Assembly (NCBI RefSeq): GCF_006636205.1
Contig: NZ_VIGB01000003.1
Location: forward strand, 2,604,001-2,668,000
Source of the DNA: Kitasatospora acidiphila
Lineage (GTDB): Bacteria > Actinomycetota > Actinomycetes > Streptomycetales > Streptomycetaceae
DNA: 64,000 nt
Reading direction: 5' to 3'
In this document: piece after piece, positions 6,197-18,141 of the stretch
Numbering within the stretch: position 1 is the stretch's first letter
How the letters are laid out: every line of letters starts with the position of its first letter
Translations under genes and position numbers: made by a program
The notes under the pieces: model-generated
The model's database searches: none
Seen by the model: only the letters and a program-made list of their open reading frames with translations
What the model was told of the DNA's origin: nothing

Positions 6197-6224
6197 CGGG
6201 GCGGGGAAAGTGGGGGGACCACTG

Positions 6225-9200
6225 GTGTCCGAAATGAGCGCGGCCTTTCGTGCCGCCGTTCGGGAGGCGATGGCCGCGCCGGACGACGGGCTGCCGTTCC
6301 TCTCCGACGAGCCGGAAGGCGTGCTGAGCCAGGAGCCTCACTTCCTGATGGCCTCGATCCTGTACGACGCACGGGAGCGGCTGACTCCCGATCAGGCCGG
6401 CGGGCCTGAAGGTGTCGACCTTGAAACGGTGTTCCTGGCGGCCTGCTACTACCTCGCACGGGTGAACCGACTACCCGAGGGCGGGAGCGAGTGGGAGCAC
6501 CACACGTTCGTCTTCCTCTTCGCCGTCGTGCACGCACTGCGTCCCGACGCGGTGCCACAGGTGCTGCGCGAGGCGTTCGAGAAGGACCCGCCGCAGTTGG
6601 TGCCCGCGTACGAAATCCTGCACGCGGCCGGCAACGCGCTGTGCCTGGCGAGCGAAGCGGCCTCGGACGCGGAGGGGGTCGCGCTGGCCGCAGCGCTCAT
6701 GATCGAGGCGCTGGAGGGTGCGCGGGGGCGGGAGTCCGAGGCGCCCATCGGCGTCAATCTCGGCACGGTCTTCACCGTGCTGGCCGAACTCGGCGGTGAC
6801 GGTGTCCCGGAGGGGCTGAGGGCCGCGGCCCTCCACCACATGCGCGAGGCGCTCGCCCTGGTACCCCTCGGGGATCCCTCGCGCGAGCCGATGCTGGCCC
6901 TGATCGCCTGGGCGCAGGCGAAGGCGCCATCGGTCGCGGTGTACGAGGGCAGCATCGGCGTCGAGATGGAGCAGTACCACCGGGACCCGGATCCGGCCCG
7001 GCTCGACGCGATGATCAACGGGTTGCGAGCCACGGTGGCCACGGCGGCCGAACCGGGGCGCACCCTCCGCCGCGTCGAACTGGGCCAGGTCCTGCGGATG
7101 CGTTTCGAGATCAACGGCGACCTCGACGACCTCGACGAGTCGATCAGCGAGCTCACGGACGCCCTGGCCGGCCCGCTCAACGACGAGCAGCGGGCGTCGG
7201 CCTGCTCGTTCCTCGGCCTGGCCTACCTCGACCGGTACGGCTCCCTGGGAGCCCCTGCCGATCTGGAGGCGGCCTCGGCAGCGGTCCGCGATGGGCAGAC
7301 CACCGGGACGGCCGCCTCGCCCGCCCACTCCCAGCGGCTCACCAACCTGGCCGGCGTCCTGACCACGCGGTTCGACGCTTACGGAGATCCCGCCGAACTG
7401 GACGAGGCTGTGGCGCACCTGAGGCACGCGGTGGCCGTCACTCCGCCGTCCCAGCAGGACTACCCCGTGATGCTGGTCAAACTCGCCGTGGCACTGCGGA
7501 AACGCGGCATGCACACGGGCCGGGACGAAGACCTCGCCACCGCCGAGGCGATCCTCAGGCAGGTGGCGGGTCAGCCCTCGGACACCGGGCTGACCCAGCC
7601 GATCGCCCGCGTGGAGCTGAGCGGCCTGCTGGCCGTGCGGGGCCTGAGCCGGAACACCGGCGCAGACCTCGTCGATACGGTCACGCAGTCCCGCGTCACC
7701 GCGCTGGCACCGACCCAGGACGTGCGGACCCGGCTGTACGGCGCGGAGATGTGGGCGATGAGCTGCGTCCTGCTGGGTGATCTGGCGCAGGCGCACACGG
7801 CCTACGGCGTGGCGCTGAACGACCTGCTGCCCAAATTGGCCGGACGGACACTCAACAGGGCGGCTCAGGAGGTGCGGCTGCGCCTGGTGGGCGCGTTGGC
7901 CAACGACGCGGCTGCCGTGGAGATCACAGCGGGCCGGCCCCGCGAGGCGTTGATCCGGCTGGAACAGGGACGTGGCGTCCTGCTGGCCCAGGCGCTCCAG
8001 CTGCGCGGACGGCATGACGACCTGCGTGCGGCCGCTCCCGGACTCGCCCAGCGTTTCGAGCGGGTCTGCGAGGAACTGGTCGAGCAGCAGGGCGGACGGG
8101 AGGAGCGCAAGGCGTCGGCGGCGGCGTTCGAAGAGGTGGTTCGGCAGATCCGCGCGCTTCCCGGTTTCGCGGACTTCCACCAGCCGCCGGACTGGAAGCA
8201 CTTGAGGCAGTCCGCAGCACAGGGGCCCGTCGCCGTCGTCAACGTCTCCCGGGCGCGCTGCGATGTCCTCCTGCTGCGCCGCCGGTTCGGCCGTGCCGTC
8301 ATCGAGGTGCTGCCGCTGCCGGATGTCACGGTCCAGGAGATCAACAGCCGGACCGTAACCTTCCGGGCGACCGTCGCGAAGCTCACGACGCCGGGCACCC
8401 CGGCCGGCGAGAAGTACCGGTACGACCGCGAGATGAAGCAGACGCTGCGGTGGTTGGGCGAGACCGTCGTGTGCCCGGTCCTCGACCGGCTGGGCTTCGA
8501 CCGACCGGCGCGGCCGGGCAAGCCCCTGCCCAGACTGTGGTGGTGCCTGACCGGTGCGCTCTCCCAACTGCCTTTGCACGCGGCCATTCTCGACACTCCC
8601 GAGCCGCACCAGCGCCCAACTCCCGTGTACGCGCACGACCGCGTGGTCTCCTCCTACGTACCGACACTGAGCTCGCTGCTCCACGCCCGCGCCAGGTTCG
8701 CGCCGGACAACGTCCGGGCCTCGCTCCTGGCCGTCGCCGTGGACGCGGGGAGCCCCTACCCGCGACTCACCGCCCTCGACGACGAACTGGCGGCGACGGA
8801 TCAACTGCCCGGCCCCCGGTCCGAACTCCGTCACACCGACGCCACCCCGGACGCGGTGCTGGCGGCGCTGCGCACGCACTCGCACGCCCATCTGGCCTGC
8901 CACGGCGTGCGGAACCCTTCCGACCCGTCGAACAGCAGACTCCTGCTCCACAACGGCAGTCTGACGCTGCGTCAGCTAGCCTCAGAGCGGTTGCTCGATG
9001 CCGAGTTCGCCTATCTCTCCGCCTGCCACAGTGCCGCGCCGGGCGAGGAGTTGGCCAATGAGGCCATCTCGGTCGCCTCGGCCTTCCAACTGTGCGGCTA
9101 CCGGCAGGTGATCGGAAGCCTGTGGACGGTGGAGGACGGCATGGGTCCGCTGCTGGCCCGCGAGGTGTACCGGCGGCTCGCCGCAGCCGGCGCACCGGAT

Positions 9201-9299
9201 GTTGCGCGGGTCCTGCACCAAGCGGTGGGAGCGCTGCGCGGTCATCCACGCTACGGCGAACCGCTGTTCTGGGCTTCGATGATTCACAGCGGGCCGTGA
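6225..9299 (+). CDS. TPR-CHAT caspase-like protease
   Basis: A 1024-residue protein with a long helical TPR-type region (about residues 50-640, with recurring units such as LDDLDESISELTDALAGPLN and PAELDEAVAHLRHAVAVTPP) and a C-terminal CHAT domain (about 680-1020). CHAT is a caspase/separase-like cysteine peptidase fold. The catalytic pair is visible: His893 in AHLACHGVRNP and Cys934 in FAYLSACHSAAPGEE, followed by the typical IGSLWTVEDGMGPLLAREVY strand. The start is the GTG at 6225, with GGGGGA 7 bases upstream; GTG 6210 and ATG 6234 are alternatives. It heads a three-gene cassette with a small Cys-containing protein and a membrane protein. CHAT proteases fused to repeats occur in bacterial conflict and cell-death systems; the target here is unknown. 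Confidence 0.95.
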   Translation: MSEMSAAFRAAVREAMAAPDDGLPFLSDEPEGVLSQEPHFLMASILYDARERLTPDQAGGPEGVDLETVFLAACYYLARVNRLPEGGSEWEHHTFVFLFAVVHALRPDAVPQVLREAFEKDPPQLVPAYEILHAAGNALCLASEAASDAEGVALAAALMIEALEGARGRESEAPIGVNLGTVFTVLAELGGDGVPEGLRAAALHHMREALALVPLGDPSREPMLALIAWAQAKAPSVAVYEGSIGVEMEQYHRDPDPARLDAMINGLRATVATAAEPGRTLRRVELGQVLRMRFEINGDLDDLDESISELTDALAGPLNDEQRASACSFLGLAYLDRYGSLGAPADLEAASAAVRDGQTTGTAASPAHSQRLTNLAGVLTTRFDAYGDPAELDEAVAHLRHAVAVTPPSQQDYPVMLVKLAVALRKRGMHTGRDEDLATAEAILRQVAGQPSDTGLTQPIARVELSGLLAVRGLSRNTGADLVDTVTQSRVTALAPTQDVRTRLYGAEMWAMSCVLLGDLAQAHTAYGVALNDLLPKLAGRTLNRAAQEVRLRLVGALANDAAAVEITAGRPREALIRLEQGRGVLLAQALQLRGRHDDLRAAAPGLAQRFERVCEELVEQQGGREERKASAAAFEEVVRQIRALPGFADFHQPPDWKHLRQSAAQGPVAVVNVSRARCDVLLLRRRFGRAVIEVLPLPDVTVQEINSRTVTFRATVAKLTTPGTPAGEKYRYDREMKQTLRWLGETVVCPVLDRLGFDRPARPGKPLPRLWWCLTGALSQLPLHAAILDTPEPHQRPTPVYAHDRVVSSYVPTLSSLLHARARFAPDNVRASLLAVAVDAGSPYPRLTALDDELAATDQLPGPRSELRHTDATPDAVLAALRTHSHAHLACHGVRNPSDPSNSRLLLHNGSLTLRQLASERLLDAEFAYLSACHSAAPGEELANEAISVASAFQLCGYRQVIGSLWTVEDGMGPLLAREVYRRLAAAGAPDVARVLHQAVGALRGHPRYGEPLFWASMIHSGP

Positions 9300-11411: not shown

Positions 11412-11459
11412 AGTGTGCGCGGTGACACTGCCGTGCACGGAAGCACCGGGGGCTCAGCC

Positions 11460-12995
11460 ATGCCAGAAAACGCCGTAACACGCCGGCCAGACCGCTGGCT
11501 GGTGCTGGCCGTCATCTGCCTGGTGCAGATGGTCGTCATCCTGGACAACACCATCCTCAACGTCGCGCTGCCGTCGCTGGCCACCGGCCTGCATGCCGAC
11601 ACCGGGCAGCTCCAATGGGTCATCGGGGCCTACTCGCTGGCCCAGGCCGGTCTGCTGATCGCCGCCGGCGGCATGGCCGACCGGTACGGGCGCAAGAAGG
11701 TGCAGCTGATCGGTCTGGCCCTGTTCGGGCTCGGCTCGGCGGGCGCCTCGCTCGCCTCCGACCCGGCGCAGCTGATCGCCGCCCGGGCCGGCATGGGCGT
11801 CGGCGGCAGCCTGCTGCTGGCCACCAGCCTGGCGATCGTGGTGCGCACCTTCGACGCGGAGGAGCAGCCCAAGGCGATCGCGGCCTGGTCCGCCGTGGCC
11901 ATGCTGGGCTTCGCGGTCGGCCCGGTCATCGGCGGTGTGCTGCTGCGGTTCTTCTGGTGGGGCGCCTGCTTCATGGTCAACCTGCCGGTGGTGGTGCTCG
12001 GCCTGATCGCGGTCGCCCGACTGGTGCCGGAGTCCAAGGACCCGCGCGGTGCCCGGCCCGACGTGCTCGGGGTGCTGCTCTCCACGGCCGGCATGGTCGG
12101 CGTGGTGTTCGGGATCATCCAGGGCCCGGAGGCCGGCTGGACCTCGGCCCGCACCCTGGTCTCCGGCGGCCTCGGCCTGCTGCTGCTGGTGGCCTTCGCA
12201 CTGTGGGAGCAGCGGATCGAACACCCGCTGCTCGACATGGGGTTCTTCCGCAACGGCAAGTTCCGGGGCGCGGTCTCCGGCGGCGTGCTGGTCAGCTTCG
12301 GCATGGGCGGTTCGCTCTTCCTGCTGACCCAGCACCTGCAGTTCGTCCTCGGCTACGGCCCGCTGAGCGCCGGTCTGCGGACCGCGCCGATGGCGCTGAC
12401 CGTGGTGCTGCTCAACCTCACCGGCACCGGGATGCGGCTGACCGGCAAGCTGAAGCCGGGGGTGGCGATCGCCCTGGGCCTGACCCTGCTGGCCCTCGGT
12501 CTGACCTCGGTCGCCGAGCTCGGCCGGCACGGCTCCTACCCGGGCATCCTGCTCGGCCTGGTGCTGATCGGGGCCGGGGTTGCCTGTGCGCAGCCCGCGA
12601 TGGCCGGTTCGGTGATGTCCTCGATCCCGCCGGAGAAGGCCGGTGTCGGCTCCGGACTGATGGGCACGCTCAGCGAGTTGGGCAACTCGCTCGGCGTCGC
12701 GGTGCTCGGCGCGGTGCTCACCGCCGGGTTCACCGGCAAGCTGCCGGCCGGTCTGCCGTCCTCGGTGGGTCGCTCGCTGCCGGAGGCGCTGGCCGCCGCC
12801 GGTACGGCCGGTGAGCACCAGGTGCGGTCCGCCTTCGGGGACAGCCTGACCAACAGCCAGCTGATCGGCGCGGTGGCGGTGCTGATCGGCGGTCTGCTGG
12901 CGGGCTGGCTGATCCAGCGGGCGGGCCGGGTCGAGCCGCCGGTGGCCGCCCCCGGCGACCAGCCCACCGACCAGCCGGTGGTCCAGGCCGGCTGA
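11460..12995 (+). CDS. DHA2-family MFS drug-efflux transporter
   Basis: A 511-residue proton-driven multidrug exporter with about 14 membrane helices. Family motifs are present: ILDNTILNVALPSLATGL in helix 1 (DHA2 motif D1), GGMADRYGRKKVQLIGL (motif A) in the first cytoplasmic loop, and FAVGPVIGGVLL (motif C) in helix 5. GGGGG lies 7 bases before the ATG. It is preceded by the perfect palindrome at 11377 and followed by a TetR-type regulator gene in the same direction, so expression is probably induced by a substrate that releases that repressor. Confidence 0.95.
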   Translation: MPENAVTRRPDRWLVLAVICLVQMVVILDNTILNVALPSLATGLHADTGQLQWVIGAYSLAQAGLLIAAGGMADRYGRKKVQLIGLALFGLGSAGASLASDPAQLIAARAGMGVGGSLLLATSLAIVVRTFDAEEQPKAIAAWSAVAMLGFAVGPVIGGVLLRFFWWGACFMVNLPVVVLGLIAVARLVPESKDPRGARPDVLGVLLSTAGMVGVVFGIIQGPEAGWTSARTLVSGGLGLLLLVAFALWEQRIEHPLLDMGFFRNGKFRGAVSGGVLVSFGMGGSLFLLTQHLQFVLGYGPLSAGLRTAPMALTVVLLNLTGTGMRLTGKLKPGVAIALGLTLLALGLTSVAELGRHGSYPGILLGLVLIGAGVACAQPAMAGSVMSSIPPEKAGVGSGLMGTLSELGNSLGVAVLGAVLTAGFTGKLPAGLPSSVGRSLPEALAAAGTAGEHQVRSAFGDSLTNSQLIGAVAVLIGGLLAGWLIQRAGRVEPPVAAPGDQPTDQPVVQAG

Positions 12996-13020: not shown

Positions 13021-13054
13021 GCACGGCCGTCCGCGCGGATGCGGGCGGCCGTGC
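13021..13054 (+). terminator. hairpin between the MFS and TetR genes
   Basis: GCACGGCCGTCCGC and GCGGGCGGCCGTGC form a 14-bp stem with one G-U pair and a 6-base loop. There is no T-tract. It may terminate or attenuate read-through from the pump gene into the regulator gene. Confidence 0.6.
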
Positions 13055-13122
13055 CGTCGTCGTACCACCAGGCAGAACCGCGCTCCGAAGAAGCGCACCA
13101 CGAAGGACAGAGGGCAGCAGGC

Positions 13123-13878
13123 ATGGCAGACAAGCCCCGTGACCCGGCCATGAGCGTCTGGCTCACCCCGCCCAAGCGGAAGAAGCGGGGCTCTGCGCCG
13201 ACCGGGCTGAGCCGGGAGCGGATCATCGACACCGCGGTGGCGCTGCTCGACAGCGAGGGGATCGACGCGTTCTCGATGCGCAGGCTGGCGGCCGAGCTCG
13301 ACGTCACCCCGATGTCGGTCTACTGGTACGTGGACAGCAAGGACGATCTGCTCGAACTCGCCCTGGACGCGGCCTTCGGCACCATGAAGGTGCCGCCGCT
13401 GGAGGACCACGGCGACTGGCGCCGGCACGTCTACGTGATGGCCCATGAGTACCGCAAGTGCTACCTGGAGCACCCGTGGGCCGCCGAGATGGTCGGCCGC
13501 TACCTGTCGGTGGGCCCGAACGCGATGCTGCTGTCCAGCAGCGTGATGAGCGCGCTCTCCGGCACCGGGCTGACCGGCGACGCCCTGGCCGGCGCCGTCG
13601 CGCTGGTCTTCCAGTTCGCCTACGGCGTCGCCATGGCGGAGTCCATGTGGGCCCGGCGGGTCCGGCAGCAGGAGGGCGACGAGGACACCGTCTACCGGCA
13701 GATGCAGGACATGCTGTCGGAGCACGACTCCCGCTTCACCGTGTGGGAGCAGCAGTTCGGCTACGACCGGCGCCAGGACTTCGCGAGCGCCCGCAACCGC
13801 CAGTTCGACCAGGGCCTGGAGATGGCGCTGGCCGGCATCGAGGCCGCGATCGCCGCGCTCCCGAAGGGGCACGGCTGA
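13123..13878 (+). CDS. TetR family regulator with TetR_C_1-type ligand domain
   Basis: A 251-residue repressor. The N-terminal helix-turn-helix is LSRERIIDTAVALLDSEGID followed by SMRRLAAELDVTPMSVYWYV, with the YWYV ending typical of the TetR_C_1 group. It is preceded by a basic leader (PPKRKKRG), and the long helical ligand-binding domain fills the rest. The ATG with GGACAGAGGG upstream is chosen over a start 28 codons earlier. It is probably the repressor of the upstream pump, acting at the 35-bp palindrome. Confidence 0.93.
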   Translation: MADKPRDPAMSVWLTPPKRKKRGSAPTGLSRERIIDTAVALLDSEGIDAFSMRRLAAELDVTPMSVYWYVDSKDDLLELALDAAFGTMKVPPLEDHGDWRRHVYVMAHEYRKCYLEHPWAAEMVGRYLSVGPNAMLLSSSVMSALSGTGLTGDALAGAVALVFQFAYGVAMAESMWARRVRQQEGDEDTVYRQMQDMLSEHDSRFTVWEQQFGYDRRQDFASARNRQFDQGLEMALAGIEAAIAALPKGHG

Positions 13879-13893
13879 CCGCGGCGACCAGCC

Positions 13894-15423
13894 CTAGATG
13901 TCGCGGAAGGTCTCGATCTGGGCGCCGATCGAGTTGAGCCGCTCGGCCAGCTCCTCGTAACCGCGGTTGATCACATAAACGTTGCGCAGCACCGAGGTGC
14001 CCTCGGTGGCCAGCATCGCCAGCAGCACCACCACGGCCGGGCGCAGCGCCGGCGGGCACATCATCTCGGCCGCCCGCCAGCGGGTCGGGCCCTCCACCAG
14101 CACCCGGTGCGGGTCCATCAGCTGCACGTTGGCGCCCAGCCGGGTCAGCTCGGTCAGGTAGATGGCCCGGTTCTCGTAGACCCAGTCGTGGATCAGCGTG
14201 GAACCCTGGGCGGTTGCCGCGATGGCGGCGAAGAACGGCACGTTGTCGATGTTGATGCCGGGGAACGGCATCGGGTGGATCTTGTCGATCGGCGACCGCA
14301 GCTTGGACGGGCGGACCGTCAGGTCGACCAGCCGGGTGCGGCCGTTGTCGGCGAAGTACTCGGGGCCGCGGTCGTAGTCGAGGCCCATCTCCTCCAGCAC
14401 CGCGAGCTCGATCTCCAGGAACTCCACCGGCGCCCGGCGGACCGTCAGTTCGGAGCCGGTGACCACGGCGGCGGCCAGCAGGCTCATCGCCTCCACCGGG
14501 TCCTCGCTGGGCGCGTAGTCCACGTCGCAGGTGATCTGGGGCAGGCCGTGCACGGTGAGGGTGGTGGTGCCGACGCCCTCGATCCGCACGCCCAGCTTCT
14601 CCAGGAAGAAGCAGAGGTCCTGGACCATGTAGTTGGGGCTGGCGTTGCGGATCACCGACACGCCGTCATGCCGGGCGGCGGCCAGCAGCGCGTTCTCCGT
14701 CACGGTGTCGCCGCGCTCGGTCAGCACGATCGGGCGGCCGGGGCTGACGGCGCGGTCCACCTCGGCGTGGTAGATGCCGGTGGTGGCGGTGACCTCAAGG
14801 CCGAACCGGCGCAGCGCGGCCATGTGCGGCTCGACGGTGCGGGTGCCGAGGTCGCAGCCGCCGGCGTAGGGGAGCTTGAAGCGGTCCACCCGGTGCATCA
14901 GCGGGCCGAGGAACATGATGATCGATCGGGTGCGGCGGGCCGCGGCCTGGTCCATGGCGTCCAGGTCGAGCTCGGCCGGCGGGGTGATCTCCAGGTCGGC
15001 GCCGTCGTTGATCCAACGGGTCTTCACGCCGATGCTGTTGAGCACCTCCAGCAGGCGGTAGACCTCCTCGATCCGGGCCACCCGGCGCAGCGTGGTGCGA
15101 CCGGTGGTCAGCAGCGAGGCGCAGAGCAGCGCGACGCAGGCGTTCTTGCTGGTCTTGACGTCGATGCTGCCGGAGAGCCGGCGGCCGCCGACCACCCTAA
15201 GGTGCATCGGTCCGGCGTAGCCGAGCGAGACGATCTCGCTGTCCAGCGCCTCACCGATCCGGGCGATCATCTCAAGGCTGATGTTCTGCCCGCCGTTCTC
15301 GATCCGGTTGACGGCACTCTGGCTGGTGCCGAGGGCCGTGCCGAGTTCCGCCTGGGTCCAACCGCGGTGCTTGCGGGCGTCCCGAATGAGCTTGCCGATG
15401 CGCGCCAGGTAGTCATCTGCCAT
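13894..15423 (-). CDS. XRE-MurA fusion: UDP-N-acetylglucosamine 1-carboxyvinyltransferase-like protein
   Basis: A 509-residue protein: an XRE-type helix-turn-helix at residues 8-62 (LGTALGTSQSAVNRIENGG) fused to a complete EPSP-synthase/MurA fold (about 75-509). MurA adds enolpyruvate to UDP-GlcNAc in peptidoglycan synthesis. Conserved MurA features are Lys93-Asn94 (TSKNAC), Cys190 in AGGCDLGTRTVEPH matching the fosfomycin-target Cys, and the late ENR and RGYE motifs. Less conserved are the place of the E. coli catalytic Asp305 (PTDMQ there, FPGINIDN here) and the D-L-R motif (ALR here). It may therefore be a MurA-derived sensor-regulator or a divergent enzyme. A palindrome ends 12 bases before the start codon, suggesting autoregulation. 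Confidence 0.93.
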   Translation of the reverse strand: MADDYLARIGKLIRDARKHRGWTQAELGTALGTSQSAVNRIENGGQNISLEMIARIGEALDSEIVSLGYAGPMHLRVVGGRRLSGSIDVKTSKNACVALLCASLLTTGRTTLRRVARIEEVYRLLEVLNSIGVKTRWINDGADLEITPPAELDLDAMDQAAARRTRSIIMFLGPLMHRVDRFKLPYAGGCDLGTRTVEPHMAALRRFGLEVTATTGIYHAEVDRAVSPGRPIVLTERGDTVTENALLAAARHDGVSVIRNASPNYMVQDLCFFLEKLGVRIEGVGTTTLTVHGLPQITCDVDYAPSEDPVEAMSLLAAAVVTGSELTVRRAPVEFLEIELAVLEEMGLDYDRGPEYFADNGRTRLVDLTVRPSKLRSPIDKIHPMPFPGINIDNVPFFAAIAATAQGSTLIHDWVYENRAIYLTELTRLGANVQLMDPHRVLVEGPTRWRAAEMMCPPALRPAVVVLLAMLATEGTSVLRNVYVINRGYEELAERLNSIGAQIETFRDI

Positions 15424-15434
15424 GGGCGAGACGA

Positions 15435-15452
15435 TATCTCATCCATGAGATA
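15435..15452. promoter_or_regulatory. 18-bp palindromic operator of the XRE-MurA gene
   Basis: TATCTCAT-CC-ATGAGATA is a perfect inverted repeat with 8-bp arms, lying 12 bases upstream of the XRE-MurA start. Size, symmetry and position suit an XRE-type dimer binding its own promoter. Confidence 0.8.
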
Positions 15453-15459
15453 CGACTAC

Positions 15460-15490
15460 GGGCGGTACCCCCGTTCAGGGGATACCGCCC
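15460..15490 (-). terminator. terminator of the FHA-ABC transporter gene
   Basis: GGGCGGTA plus CCCC pairs with GGGG plus TACCGCCC, with one bulged base and a short loop, 24 bases after the transporter stop codon. It separates that gene from the XRE-MurA promoter. Confidence 0.75.
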
Positions 15491-15513
15491 GCAACAGCCC
15501 AGGTGAGGCCGGG

Positions 15514-18141
15514 TCAGCCCTTCTGCATGACCTCCGGCTCGTGACGGCGCAGCAGTCGCTGGACCACGAAGGCCAGCAGCACCGAGAGCACCACCAGCAT
15601 GCCCGCGTCGATCGCCCACTGCGCGACGCTGTGCTTCCACAGGCCGTCGTGGTCGTTCATGTGCGCGGGGTCGAGGATCATCATGTGGCCGAGGTCCAGC
15701 GTGGTGCCGACCGTGGCGACGCCCCAGCGGGCCGGCATGAGCCAGGCCAGCTGGGCCAGGCCCGCCTTGTCGAAGAGCTGGAAGAGGCAGCCGGTGAAGA
15801 CCACCTGGATGATGGCGAACATCACCAGCAGCGGCATGGTCTTCTCCGCCGTCTTCACCAGGGCCGAGATCACCAGGCCGAACATCATCGAGGTGAAGGA
15901 CAGCAGGATGATGCCGATCGCCATCTCGATGGCCGGCGCGCTGGAGAAGAGCAGGCCCGAGGTGGGCAGCTTGCGGGTGGAGAAGCCGACCGCGGCGATG
16001 ATCGTGCCCTGCAGCAGGCTGAAGAACCCGAGCACGATGATCTTCGACATCAGGTACGCACTCCGGGACAGGCCGGTCGCTCGTTCTCGTTCGTAGATCG
16101 CCCGTTCCTTGATCAACTCACGGACCGAGTTGGCCGCTCCGGAGAAGCAGGCACCGATCGCCAGCACCAGCATGATGGTGCCGGCCGCGTTGTTGGTGCC
16201 GTGCGGGTTGGCCCGCAGGCCGAAGGTGGCCGGGACCACGGTGGAGACCACACCGAGGACCGCGGGCAGGATCACCGACAGCGCCATGAAGCCCTTGTCG
16301 GAGCCGATCACCGACAGGTAGCGGCGGATCAGCGTCCACAGCTGCGAGCCCCAGCTCTGCGGCTTGGGCGGCAGCACCGGCTGCTGGTTGACCGGCGCCT
16401 GCTGCACCGCCACTCCGTCGACGGCCGCCGCGTACTGCTGGTAGTGCACCGAGCCCTTGTAGCGGCCGGCCCAGTCGTGGTCCGGGTAGTTCTCGAACGC
16501 CTGGAAGACGTCCGCCCAGGTCTCGTAGCCGAAGAAGTGCAGGGCCTCGTCCGGCGGGCCGAAGTACGCCACCGAACCACCCGGCGCCATCACCAGCAGC
16601 CGGTCGCAGAGCGCGAGTTCGGCCACCGAGTGGGTCACCACCAGGATGGTGCGGCCGTCGTCGGCCAGCCCGCGCAGCATCTGCATGACCTCGCGGTCCA
16701 TGCCCGGGTCGAGGCCCGAGGTGGGCTCGTCCAGGAAGATCAGCGAAGGCTTGGTGAGCAGCTCCAGGGCGACCGAGACGCGCTTCTGCTGACCGCCGGA
16801 GAGCGCGGTGATGCGGTTCTCGGCCCGCTTGTCCAGGCGCAGTTCGTAGAGCACCTCGTCGATCCGGCGCTCACGCTCGGACGGCTCGGTGTCGCCGGGG
16901 AAGCGCAGCCGGGCCGCGTACTTCAGACCGGTGCGGACCGTCAGCTCCTTGTGCAGGATCTCCGACTGCGGCACCAGGCCGATGCGCTGGCGCAGCTCGG
17001 CGAACTGCTTGTAGAGGTTGCGGCCGTCGTAGAGCACCTCGCCGCGGTCGGCCGGGCGGTAGCCGGTCAGCGCGCGCAGCAGCGTGGACTTGCCGGAGCC
17101 GGAGGGGCCGATCACCGCGACCAGCGACTTCTCCGGGACGCCGAAGCTGACGTCGTTGAGCAGCACCTTCTTGGCGCCCTTGTGCTCGACCTCGACGGTC
17201 AAGTGGTGCGCGGAGAAGGAGACCGGGCCGTTGTCGATGAACTCCTGCAGCTGGTCGCCGACCAGTTGGAAGGACGAGTGGCCGACCGTCAGGCGGTCCT
17301 GCGGGCCGAGCAGCTGACGCTGCACCTGCTGGCCGTTGACGTAGATGCCGTTGTGCGAGCCGAGGTCGACGATCTCGTAGCGGCCGTCGGTGAGCTGGCG
17401 CAGCTCGGCGTGGTGCCGGGAGACCTGCAGGTCGGAGACGACGATGTCGTTGTCCAGGGCACGGCCGATCCGGACCATCCGCATCGCGGAGGTCAGGTTC
17501 CGGATCATGGTGGGGTTGCGCTCGCTGACGTAGCCGGCCGGGCCGCCGCCGACACCGTGGCCGAAGTCCTGGTGGACCCCGGGGTACGGCTGCTGCTGGG
17601 GCTGCTGCGCCTGCTGCTGGGGGATGGCCCCCTGCTGCGGGTAGCCCTGCTGCTGCGGGCTCTGCTGGTAAGAAGTGGCGCCCTGCTGGGGGTAGCCGGC
17701 CTGCTGCTGGTAGCCCTGCTGCTGCGGGATGGCGCCCTGCTGCTGGTAGCCCATCGGCTGGGCCGGCGGGGTGTGCCGGTAGGTCTCCGCCTCGTGCACC
17801 GGCGGCTGCCCCATCGGCTGGCCGACCGGCTGGGCCACGGGTTGCGCCACCGGGGCGGAGAAGACCAGCCGGGGGCCGTTCTCCGCGTTGCCCAGGTTGA
17901 GCACGGTGCCGGGCAGCAGCTGGGTGTGCAGGGTCCGCCCGCCACCGATCCAGGTGCCGTTGGTGCTGCCGTGGTCCTCCAGCTGCCAACTGGCGCCGTT
18001 GAACGAGATGGTGGCGTGCCGCCACGACACCCTGGCGTCGTCGAACGGGAGATCCGCCTGCGGATCCCGTCCGATGGTGTAGGACTGCCCCGGTTCCAGC
18101 GTCCGCTGCTGTCCGTTGACTTCTAGAAGGAGTTGCGGCAC
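15514..18141 (-). CDS. FHA-FHA-ABC transporter (Rv1747-like)
   Basis: An 875-residue half-transporter. It has two phosphothreonine-binding FHA domains at about residues 20-92 (TIGRDPQADLPFDDARVSWR) and 222-300 (RIGRALDNDIVVSDLQVSRH), separated by a Gln/Pro/Gly-rich linker of about 100 residues. An ABC ATPase follows at 315-545, with Walker A GPSGSGKS at 345-352, signature LSGGQ and Walker B LIFLDEP. An ABC2-type membrane domain with about six helices ends the protein. The layout matches mycobacterial Rv1747, an exporter regulated by Ser/Thr kinase phosphorylation through its FHA domains. No kinase gene is adjacent. The exported substrate is unknown; a cell-envelope component is plausible. It is divergent from serB across a 259-base spacer. 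Confidence 0.95.
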   Translation of the reverse strand: MPQLLLEVNGQQRTLEPGQSYTIGRDPQADLPFDDARVSWRHATISFNGASWQLEDHGSTNGTWIGGGRTLHTQLLPGTVLNLGNAENGPRLVFSAPVAQPVAQPVGQPMGQPPVHEAETYRHTPPAQPMGYQQQGAIPQQQGYQQQAGYPQQGATSYQQSPQQQGYPQQGAIPQQQAQQPQQQPYPGVHQDFGHGVGGGPAGYVSERNPTMIRNLTSAMRMVRIGRALDNDIVVSDLQVSRHHAELRQLTDGRYEIVDLGSHNGIYVNGQQVQRQLLGPQDRLTVGHSSFQLVGDQLQEFIDNGPVSFSAHHLTVEVEHKGAKKVLLNDVSFGVPEKSLVAVIGPSGSGKSTLLRALTGYRPADRGEVLYDGRNLYKQFAELRQRIGLVPQSEILHKELTVRTGLKYAARLRFPGDTEPSERERRIDEVLYELRLDKRAENRITALSGGQQKRVSVALELLTKPSLIFLDEPTSGLDPGMDREVMQMLRGLADDGRTILVVTHSVAELALCDRLLVMAPGGSVAYFGPPDEALHFFGYETWADVFQAFENYPDHDWAGRYKGSVHYQQYAAAVDGVAVQQAPVNQQPVLPPKPQSWGSQLWTLIRRYLSVIGSDKGFMALSVILPAVLGVVSTVVPATFGLRANPHGTNNAAGTIMLVLAIGACFSGAANSVRELIKERAIYERERATGLSRSAYLMSKIIVLGFFSLLQGTIIAAVGFSTRKLPTSGLLFSSAPAIEMAIGIILLSFTSMMFGLVISALVKTAEKTMPLLVMFAIIQVVFTGCLFQLFDKAGLAQLAWLMPARWGVATVGTTLDLGHMMILDPAHMNDHDGLWKHSVAQWAIDAGMLVVLSVLLAFVVQRLLRRHEPEVMQKG

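Follow-up and report, generated by a model that had tools for sequence, protein, structure and literature searches.

A MurA fused to an XRE domain, and a conserved palindrome before its start codon, in Kitasatospora acidiphila and other actinobacteria

When an enzyme of cell-wall synthesis is found in the same chain as a DNA-binding domain, one may ask whether the protein still works as an enzyme, whether it has become a regulator, or whether it does both and, if it regulates, which DNA it reads. These questions are raised by a gene in a 64,000-nucleotide stretch of the Kitasatospora acidiphila genome (contig NZ_VIGB01000003.1, positions 2,604,001 to 2,668,000 of the forward strand; hereafter the window), which a first-pass annotation, made from the letters and a list of open reading frames, had described as a fusion of an XRE domain to MurA. 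MurA is essential and a drug target, and the control known from other bacteria is exerted by other proteins and signalling (for example PrkA/ReoM, CwlM and PASTA kinases). If a MurA did carry its own repressor domain, cell-wall synthesis would be under direct gene-level feedback at its very entry.

The fusion gene and its active site

According to the ORF list and its translation, the XRE-MurA fusion is a single minus-strand ORF (13894-15423, 509 aa), and this, together with Pfam and fold comparison, bears out the description of an XRE domain joined to a full MurA fold. Residues 13-64 (15232-15387, minus strand), which include a TSQSA recognition motif, match HTH_3 with 54.6 bits (cut-off 23), and residues 79-496 match EPSP_synthase (PF00275) with 146.6 bits (cut-off 22.8). 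Among the NCBIfam families the protein stays below the murA equivalog cut-off (TIGR01072, 311.2 vs 392.7 bits) and passes that of the broader MurA subfamily NF006873 (325.7 vs 297 bits). An AlphaFold2 model built with 33 sequences (mean pLDDT 87) has a four-helix N-terminal domain, corresponding to the HTH, a poorly predicted linker at residues 65-70, and then the MurA domain, which by alignment to solved MurAs extends over residues 75-507 (13903-15201, minus strand). In comparisons of this model with known structures solved MurAs ranked at the top (Z ~44-47), followed by NikO (40.8) and by EPSP synthases (~36 or below). An enzyme fold and a DNA-binding domain are thus present in one chain, which is the combination looked for in a trigger enzyme.

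No conserved operon was seen around the gene, whose neighbours vary among the loci viewed (the window, L158, L187, L189, L121, L199 and L147). In the window it adjoins a pair of genes, an MFS drug-efflux-like ORF (11415-12995, plus strand) and after it a TetR-family regulator (13039-13878, plus strand), and its upstream neighbour on the same strand (15514-18141, minus strand) encodes a single protein in which two FHA domains are combined with an ABC ATPase and an ABC-2 membrane part. Elsewhere in the window, an ORF of 1029 aa (6210-9299, plus strand) weakly matches the TPR-CHAT protein Csx29 (46.7 bits, E 2.2e-12, cut-off 300) and perhaps encodes a CHAT-protease-like protein.

Catalytic residues were compared by aligning 80 orthologs, among them that of the window, to the canonical MurA of the same Kitasatospora genome (L004) and to E. 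coli MurA (from NC_000913); window copies (L001, L005, L007, L023), a duplicate (L080) and split genes (L064, L092, L097) were left out of the residue count. The equivalents of Lys22, Asn23, Arg91, Cys115, Arg120, Asp305, Arg331, Arg371 and Arg397 (E. coli numbering) are invariant in 80/80 orthologs. Cys190 (14854-14856, minus strand), which had been named as the retained UDP-GlcNAc/PEP cysteine, does align with Cys115 in every one of them. The segment holding Asp305, on the other hand, had been thought to be altered, and here the earlier alignment suffered from an anchoring slip: FPGINID aligns over HPAFPTD, which places Asp393 (14245-14247, minus strand) on Asp305 in all 80 orthologs, and an HMMER alignment to 5u4h also sets D under D.

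Other parts of the active site have changed throughout. At six positions which we take to hold the UDP part in canonical MurA, the same replacements are found in 80/80 orthologs (K160 to Glu, S162 to Gly, V163 to Asp, G164 to Thr, P121 to Thr and L124 to Pro), accompanied by E188 to Asn and E190 to Met, also invariant in the 80 aligned orthologs; Ser162 is kept in 28/28 canonical actinobacterial MurAs compared. The change of the Asp-Leu-Arg motif to ALR, noted in the first pass, is likewise real, for Asp369 is replaced (PPALR) in 80/80 orthologs and present in all 28 canonical actinobacterial proteins. According to the available text of PMC4790336, the change Asp369Asn occurs in clinical E. 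coli that resist fosfomycin, so that a MurA without Asp369 is not for that reason alone inactive. As a separate observation, nine of the 28 canonical actinobacterial MurAs (L201-L228) have Asp instead of Cys115, where all 80 XRE-MurAs have Cys; MurA with Asp at this position is described as fosfomycin-insensitive in the same available text (PMC4790336).

Carriers and their complement of MurA genes

XRE-MurA was found in 215/247 genomes of the family, representing 11/17 genera (E <= 1e-90), and in 123/393 genomes of the class, representing 26/123 genera, where full-length identities are at least 64% (E <= 1e-75). Carriers include Streptomyces, Actinacidiphila, Geodermatophilus, Blastococcus, Cellulomonas, Cellulosimicrobium and Oerskovia, as well as Promicromonospora, Brachybacterium, Mycetocola, Aeromicrobium, Mumia, Stackebrandtia and Nonomuraea. 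The 25 XRE-MurA rows included in a phylogenetic tree group together as a single clade (100/98), which is set off from canonical MurAs and AroA by a long stem (2.43); a long-branch warning bears on the exact sister group of this clade. Three XRE-MurA frames are split in two pieces: L097 (genome G323), L092 (G143) and L064 (G429).

Besides XRE-MurA, the window's genome has further genes of this kind: L004 encodes a canonical MurA, two are AroA-like, and one is a fragment. A partial EPSP-synthase-like match in this genome (L006, C3:4981303-4981662) covers profile positions 295-416 only and lies ~29 kb from the second AroA-like gene (L003). With the canonical MurA as query, a search of 36 genomes returned XRE-MurA alone in 8 of its 33 carriers, and canonical MurA alone in the three genomes picked because they have no XRE-MurA; both were present in the window's genome and in the other Streptomycetaceae of the set. 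Among 30 genomes searched with Pfam, these being the ones fully scored for EPSP-fold proteins, 18 have exactly two EPSP-fold genes, an AroA-like gene and XRE-MurA, and G323, whose XRE-MurA frame is split in two, makes a 19th. The split XRE-MurA of G323 is the only MurA candidate there, and reflects either an assembly error or true damage.

In all ten genomes tested, of these 19, the AroA-like partner scored above the curated AroA cut-off, and from the scores and the lack of a canonical MurA match we infer that the other nine partners are AroA as well. MurB is present in 19/19. Since XRE-MurA is the only MurA candidate of this fold in genomes that also have MurB, it should supply MurA activity there, and, to judge by this presence pattern, should serve as the MurA of some organisms. 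A wider set is suggested by 44 of the 123 carriers, in which there was a single canonical-MurA match, weaker than 1e-50, with at most four candidates scored per genome; a best canonical match weaker than ~1e-45 was also obtained in three genomes without XRE-MurA (G273, G508 and G518). By these patterns several actinobacterial groups, Mumia among them, appear to have no MurA other than XRE-MurA.

The promoter palindrome and its likely reader

Immediately upstream of the gene is an inverted repeat, TATCTCAT-CC-ATGAGATA (15435-15452), of 18 bp. It had been described as a perfect palindrome 12 bases before the start, and perfect it is (100% complementary), although it ends 11 bases before the ATG. 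Its core, ATCTCA-N4-TGAGAT, is found near the start across the class, with 10-12 of 12 positions matching in 79/81 ortholog loci (exact in 64, with one departure in nine and two in six, absent in two); window copies (L001, L005, L007, L023), the duplicate L080 and the split gene L064 were left out of this count. In a named set of 80 loci, of which 79 were scored because L134 comes without upstream DNA, the operator score is at least 10 in 77/79, and the other two loci keep one half-site. By way of control, windows inside the gene reached a maximum of 8 of 12 (81 loci), windows 365-500 bp upstream reached 10 in 4/81 loci, and mononucleotide shuffles reached 9 once. Upstream scores of 10 in Streptomyces loci (e.g. 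L158 and L166) mostly come from one palindrome, ATCTCGATGTCGAGAT (10 of 12), found at varying distance, which could be part of the adjacent gene. In a less redundant set of 39 loci, information content averages 1.80 bits per column over the operator's twelve core positions and 0.17 in its left flank.

In 76/79 loci the end of the palindrome overlaps a TANNNT hexamer. In the window this is TATCGT (15431-15436, minus strand), a -10-like sequence that overlaps the operator and lies 7 nt before the ATG. A sigma-70 and terminator scan of 13850-15560 found nothing. Judged by its conservation, the hexamer may be the -10 of a leaderless promoter, in a position where a bound repressor could cover it.

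Which protein reads this site can be approached by asking where else it occurs. Across 33 carrier genomes the exact site occurs 25 times, of which 21 are at the XRE-MurA gene; three of the four others were looked at, and all three lie inside predicted ORFs. A wider regulon was considered and rejected, exact sites elsewhere being this rare (4/25 in 33 genomes). In the 8.58-Mb genome that holds the window the palindrome is the only exact copy. The search for further sites recommended in the first pass yielded five one-mismatch copies there, three of them within ORFs, a fourth between the ends of two convergent ORFs, and a fifth before an ORF. One such copy, at position 1501 of L028 (C3:4837759-4837774), lies ~27 nt before a predicted ORF start and is a possible second target. 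Canonical murA loci showed no site scoring at least 10 in 28 loci (L201-L228), and none scoring at least 9 in L004.

The two loci without operator, L090 and L097, belong to one genus and also have a degenerate recognition helix, having lost the TSQSA motif, which the other rows shown keep almost unchanged, and L090 nests inside the XRE clade of the tree. HTH and operator were therefore lost together, once in our sample, and this joint loss makes the strongest case that the palindrome is read by the fused HTH. An own operator and self-regulation, as originally claimed, are well supported by such comparisons, in which the predicted site is conserved, near-unique and linked to the HTH.

The gene is very probably SCO5998 (MurA2) of S. 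coelicolor, an orthology that is based on the acnA neighbour and on a published promoter. In S. coelicoflavus (L158) the ortholog adjoins an aconitase-like gene, and in S. coelicolor SCO5998 adjoins acnA (SCO5999), with a predicted DmdR1 site between the two, according to the available part of PMC12161575. For SCO5998 itself, the available part of PMC8346170 gives the description of putative UDP-GlcNAc transferase and names it among the targets of SigB, with a distal SigB promoter. We find this promoter upstream in 5/8 Streptomyces loci (38-45 of 46 bases), where it begins roughly 235-370 bp ahead of the start codon. Given this distal promoter, the operator cannot be the only control of SCO5998, and stress sigma factor input and self-control may act together. 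The terms 'helix-turn-helix' and 'XRE' are absent from the main texts of both papers (PMC8346170 and PMC12161575), the available parts of which hold no description of an operator or self-control of SCO5998; nor was a description of a MurA-XRE autorepressor found in the open-access library searched, which excludes subscription papers and preprints.

A possible second operator, matching the core at 10 of 12 positions, lies within the HTH coding region (15269-15284), 167 bp from the main one. The spacing is 166-168 bp in 67/79 loci, equivalent to ~15.9 turns at 10.5 bp per turn. The site includes codon 50 (15274-15276), which is the rare leucine codon CTT in 99/101 sequences from Streptomycetaceae and near relatives, where CTT accounts for 2.6% of the Leu codons of xre-murA; no other of the 378 sites compared comes near such conservation. 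Invariance of this kind indicates selection on DNA or RNA rather than on protein, and a second operator would be its simplest reading, a pause codon or another element being also possible. Outside Streptomycetaceae codon 50 is free (CTC 31, CTG 18 and CTT 4 among 58 sequences), which speaks against a universal second operator, and the site would thus be a lineage-specific addition. What the present analysis adds is an invariant rare codon that marks a possible intragenic operator in Streptomycetaceae.

Weighing the readings, and known systems

We consider it likely, from these comparisons of sequence, that XRE-MurA is a catalytically competent MurA paralog and at the same time represses the gene that encodes it. 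Its XRE domain, presumed to be dimeric, would bind ATCTCA-N4-TGAGAT, and the bound protein would cover the -10-like hexamer of the apparently leaderless promoter and so block initiation once enough protein is present; DNA binding itself, repression rather than activation, and the formation of dimers or tetramers are all presumed in such a scheme. In Streptomycetaceae, the promoter operator and the intragenic site may be joined by a loop, and the invariance of the rare Leu codon would then be accounted for. DNA binding could also be coupled to occupancy of the MurA domain by substrate or product, by analogy with the trigger enzymes PutA and BirA, and sensing of wall precursors is plausible. A bolder version, which we regard as tentative and on the whole doubtful, is a class-wide feedback switch in which occupancy of the remodelled site by UDP-GlcNAc, PEP or UDP-MurNAc would set the grip of the HTH, with a loop of ~16 helical turns in Streptomycetaceae. 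Counting against the reading of a working enzyme that represses its own gene are the replacement of Asp369 and of most UDP-site residues, the missed TIGR01072 cut-off, the two operator-less loci, the negative sigma-70 scan, and the distal SigB promoter of SCO5998.

The same replacements may be taken to mean that the MurA domain is no longer catalytic and merely senses UDP-GlcNAc or PEP on behalf of the HTH. Asp369 has indeed been lost and the UDP site rewritten in 80/80 orthologs, and since a canonical MurA is also present in the window's genome and in the Streptomycetaceae searched, activity could be spared there. However, all other catalytic residues are invariant class-wide and XRE-MurA is the only MurA candidate in 19 genomes with MurB, so that we hold such a pseudoenzyme to be very unlikely. 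For these two reasons the 'MurA turned repressor' of the first-pass annotation finds no support, and the view that enzyme function has been given up is probably wrong. Alternatively, the protein could be an enolpyruvyl transferase for another acceptor, one that has kept the PEP chemistry and applies it to some other sugar nucleotide or to an alcohol; the HTH would then be adapted to the pathway concerned. This would agree with the retention of PEP-site residues while those of the UDP site were swapped for other invariant residues, with the long stem in the tree, and with the precedent of NikO, a MurA-like fold with a changed acceptor. Yet there are genomes whose only MurA-like protein is XRE-MurA, on which grounds a different substrate, as deduced from the rewritten UDP site, was rejected in part, and solved MurAs outrank NikO in both sequence and fold; we think this explanation unlikely.

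Another type of doubt concerns not the enzyme but the palindrome, which might be the site of another regulator or sigma factor, with the XRE domain acting elsewhere or being structural. Binding of the XRE domain to the palindrome is a prediction, and other inputs have been proposed for SCO5998 in the available parts of the two papers cited, namely the distal SigB promoter (PMC8346170) and the predicted DmdR1 site towards SCO5999 (PMC12161575). Nevertheless, the palindrome is almost exclusive to the XRE-MurA gene across families, and HTH and operator disappeared together in one genus, which makes this possibility highly improbable. In addition, a palindrome of this size is usual for a dimeric XRE protein.

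What this locus contains is thus a genuine and strongly constrained feature, a MurA that very probably does both jobs, as an enzyme and as the repressor of its gene. Many actinobacteria carry such a fusion of MurA with a DNA-binding domain, together with a matching and deeply conserved promoter site, and the system offers a compact test object: one 18-bp site, one protein and one synonymous codon. Among known proteins other than SCO5998 itself, canonical MurA (of E. coli, and L004) shares with XRE-MurA the fold (Z ~45), the catalytic Cys, Lys, Asn and Arg residues and Asp305, but is without XRE domain and operator, whereas XRE-MurA has Asp369 and the UDP-site residues replaced and forms a separate clade. 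NikO (4fqd), whose fold is also MurA-like and which is also found in Streptomyces, matches XRE-MurA more weakly than MurA does (sequence E 8.9e-21; Z 40.8). With PutA, BirA and NadR, which are trigger enzymes with a fused DNA-binding domain, XRE-MurA has in common the presence of enzyme and DNA-binding domain in one chain and an operator in its own promoter; it differs from them in pairing MurA and XRE domains, at the committed step of peptidoglycan synthesis, and in that its ligand control is putative.
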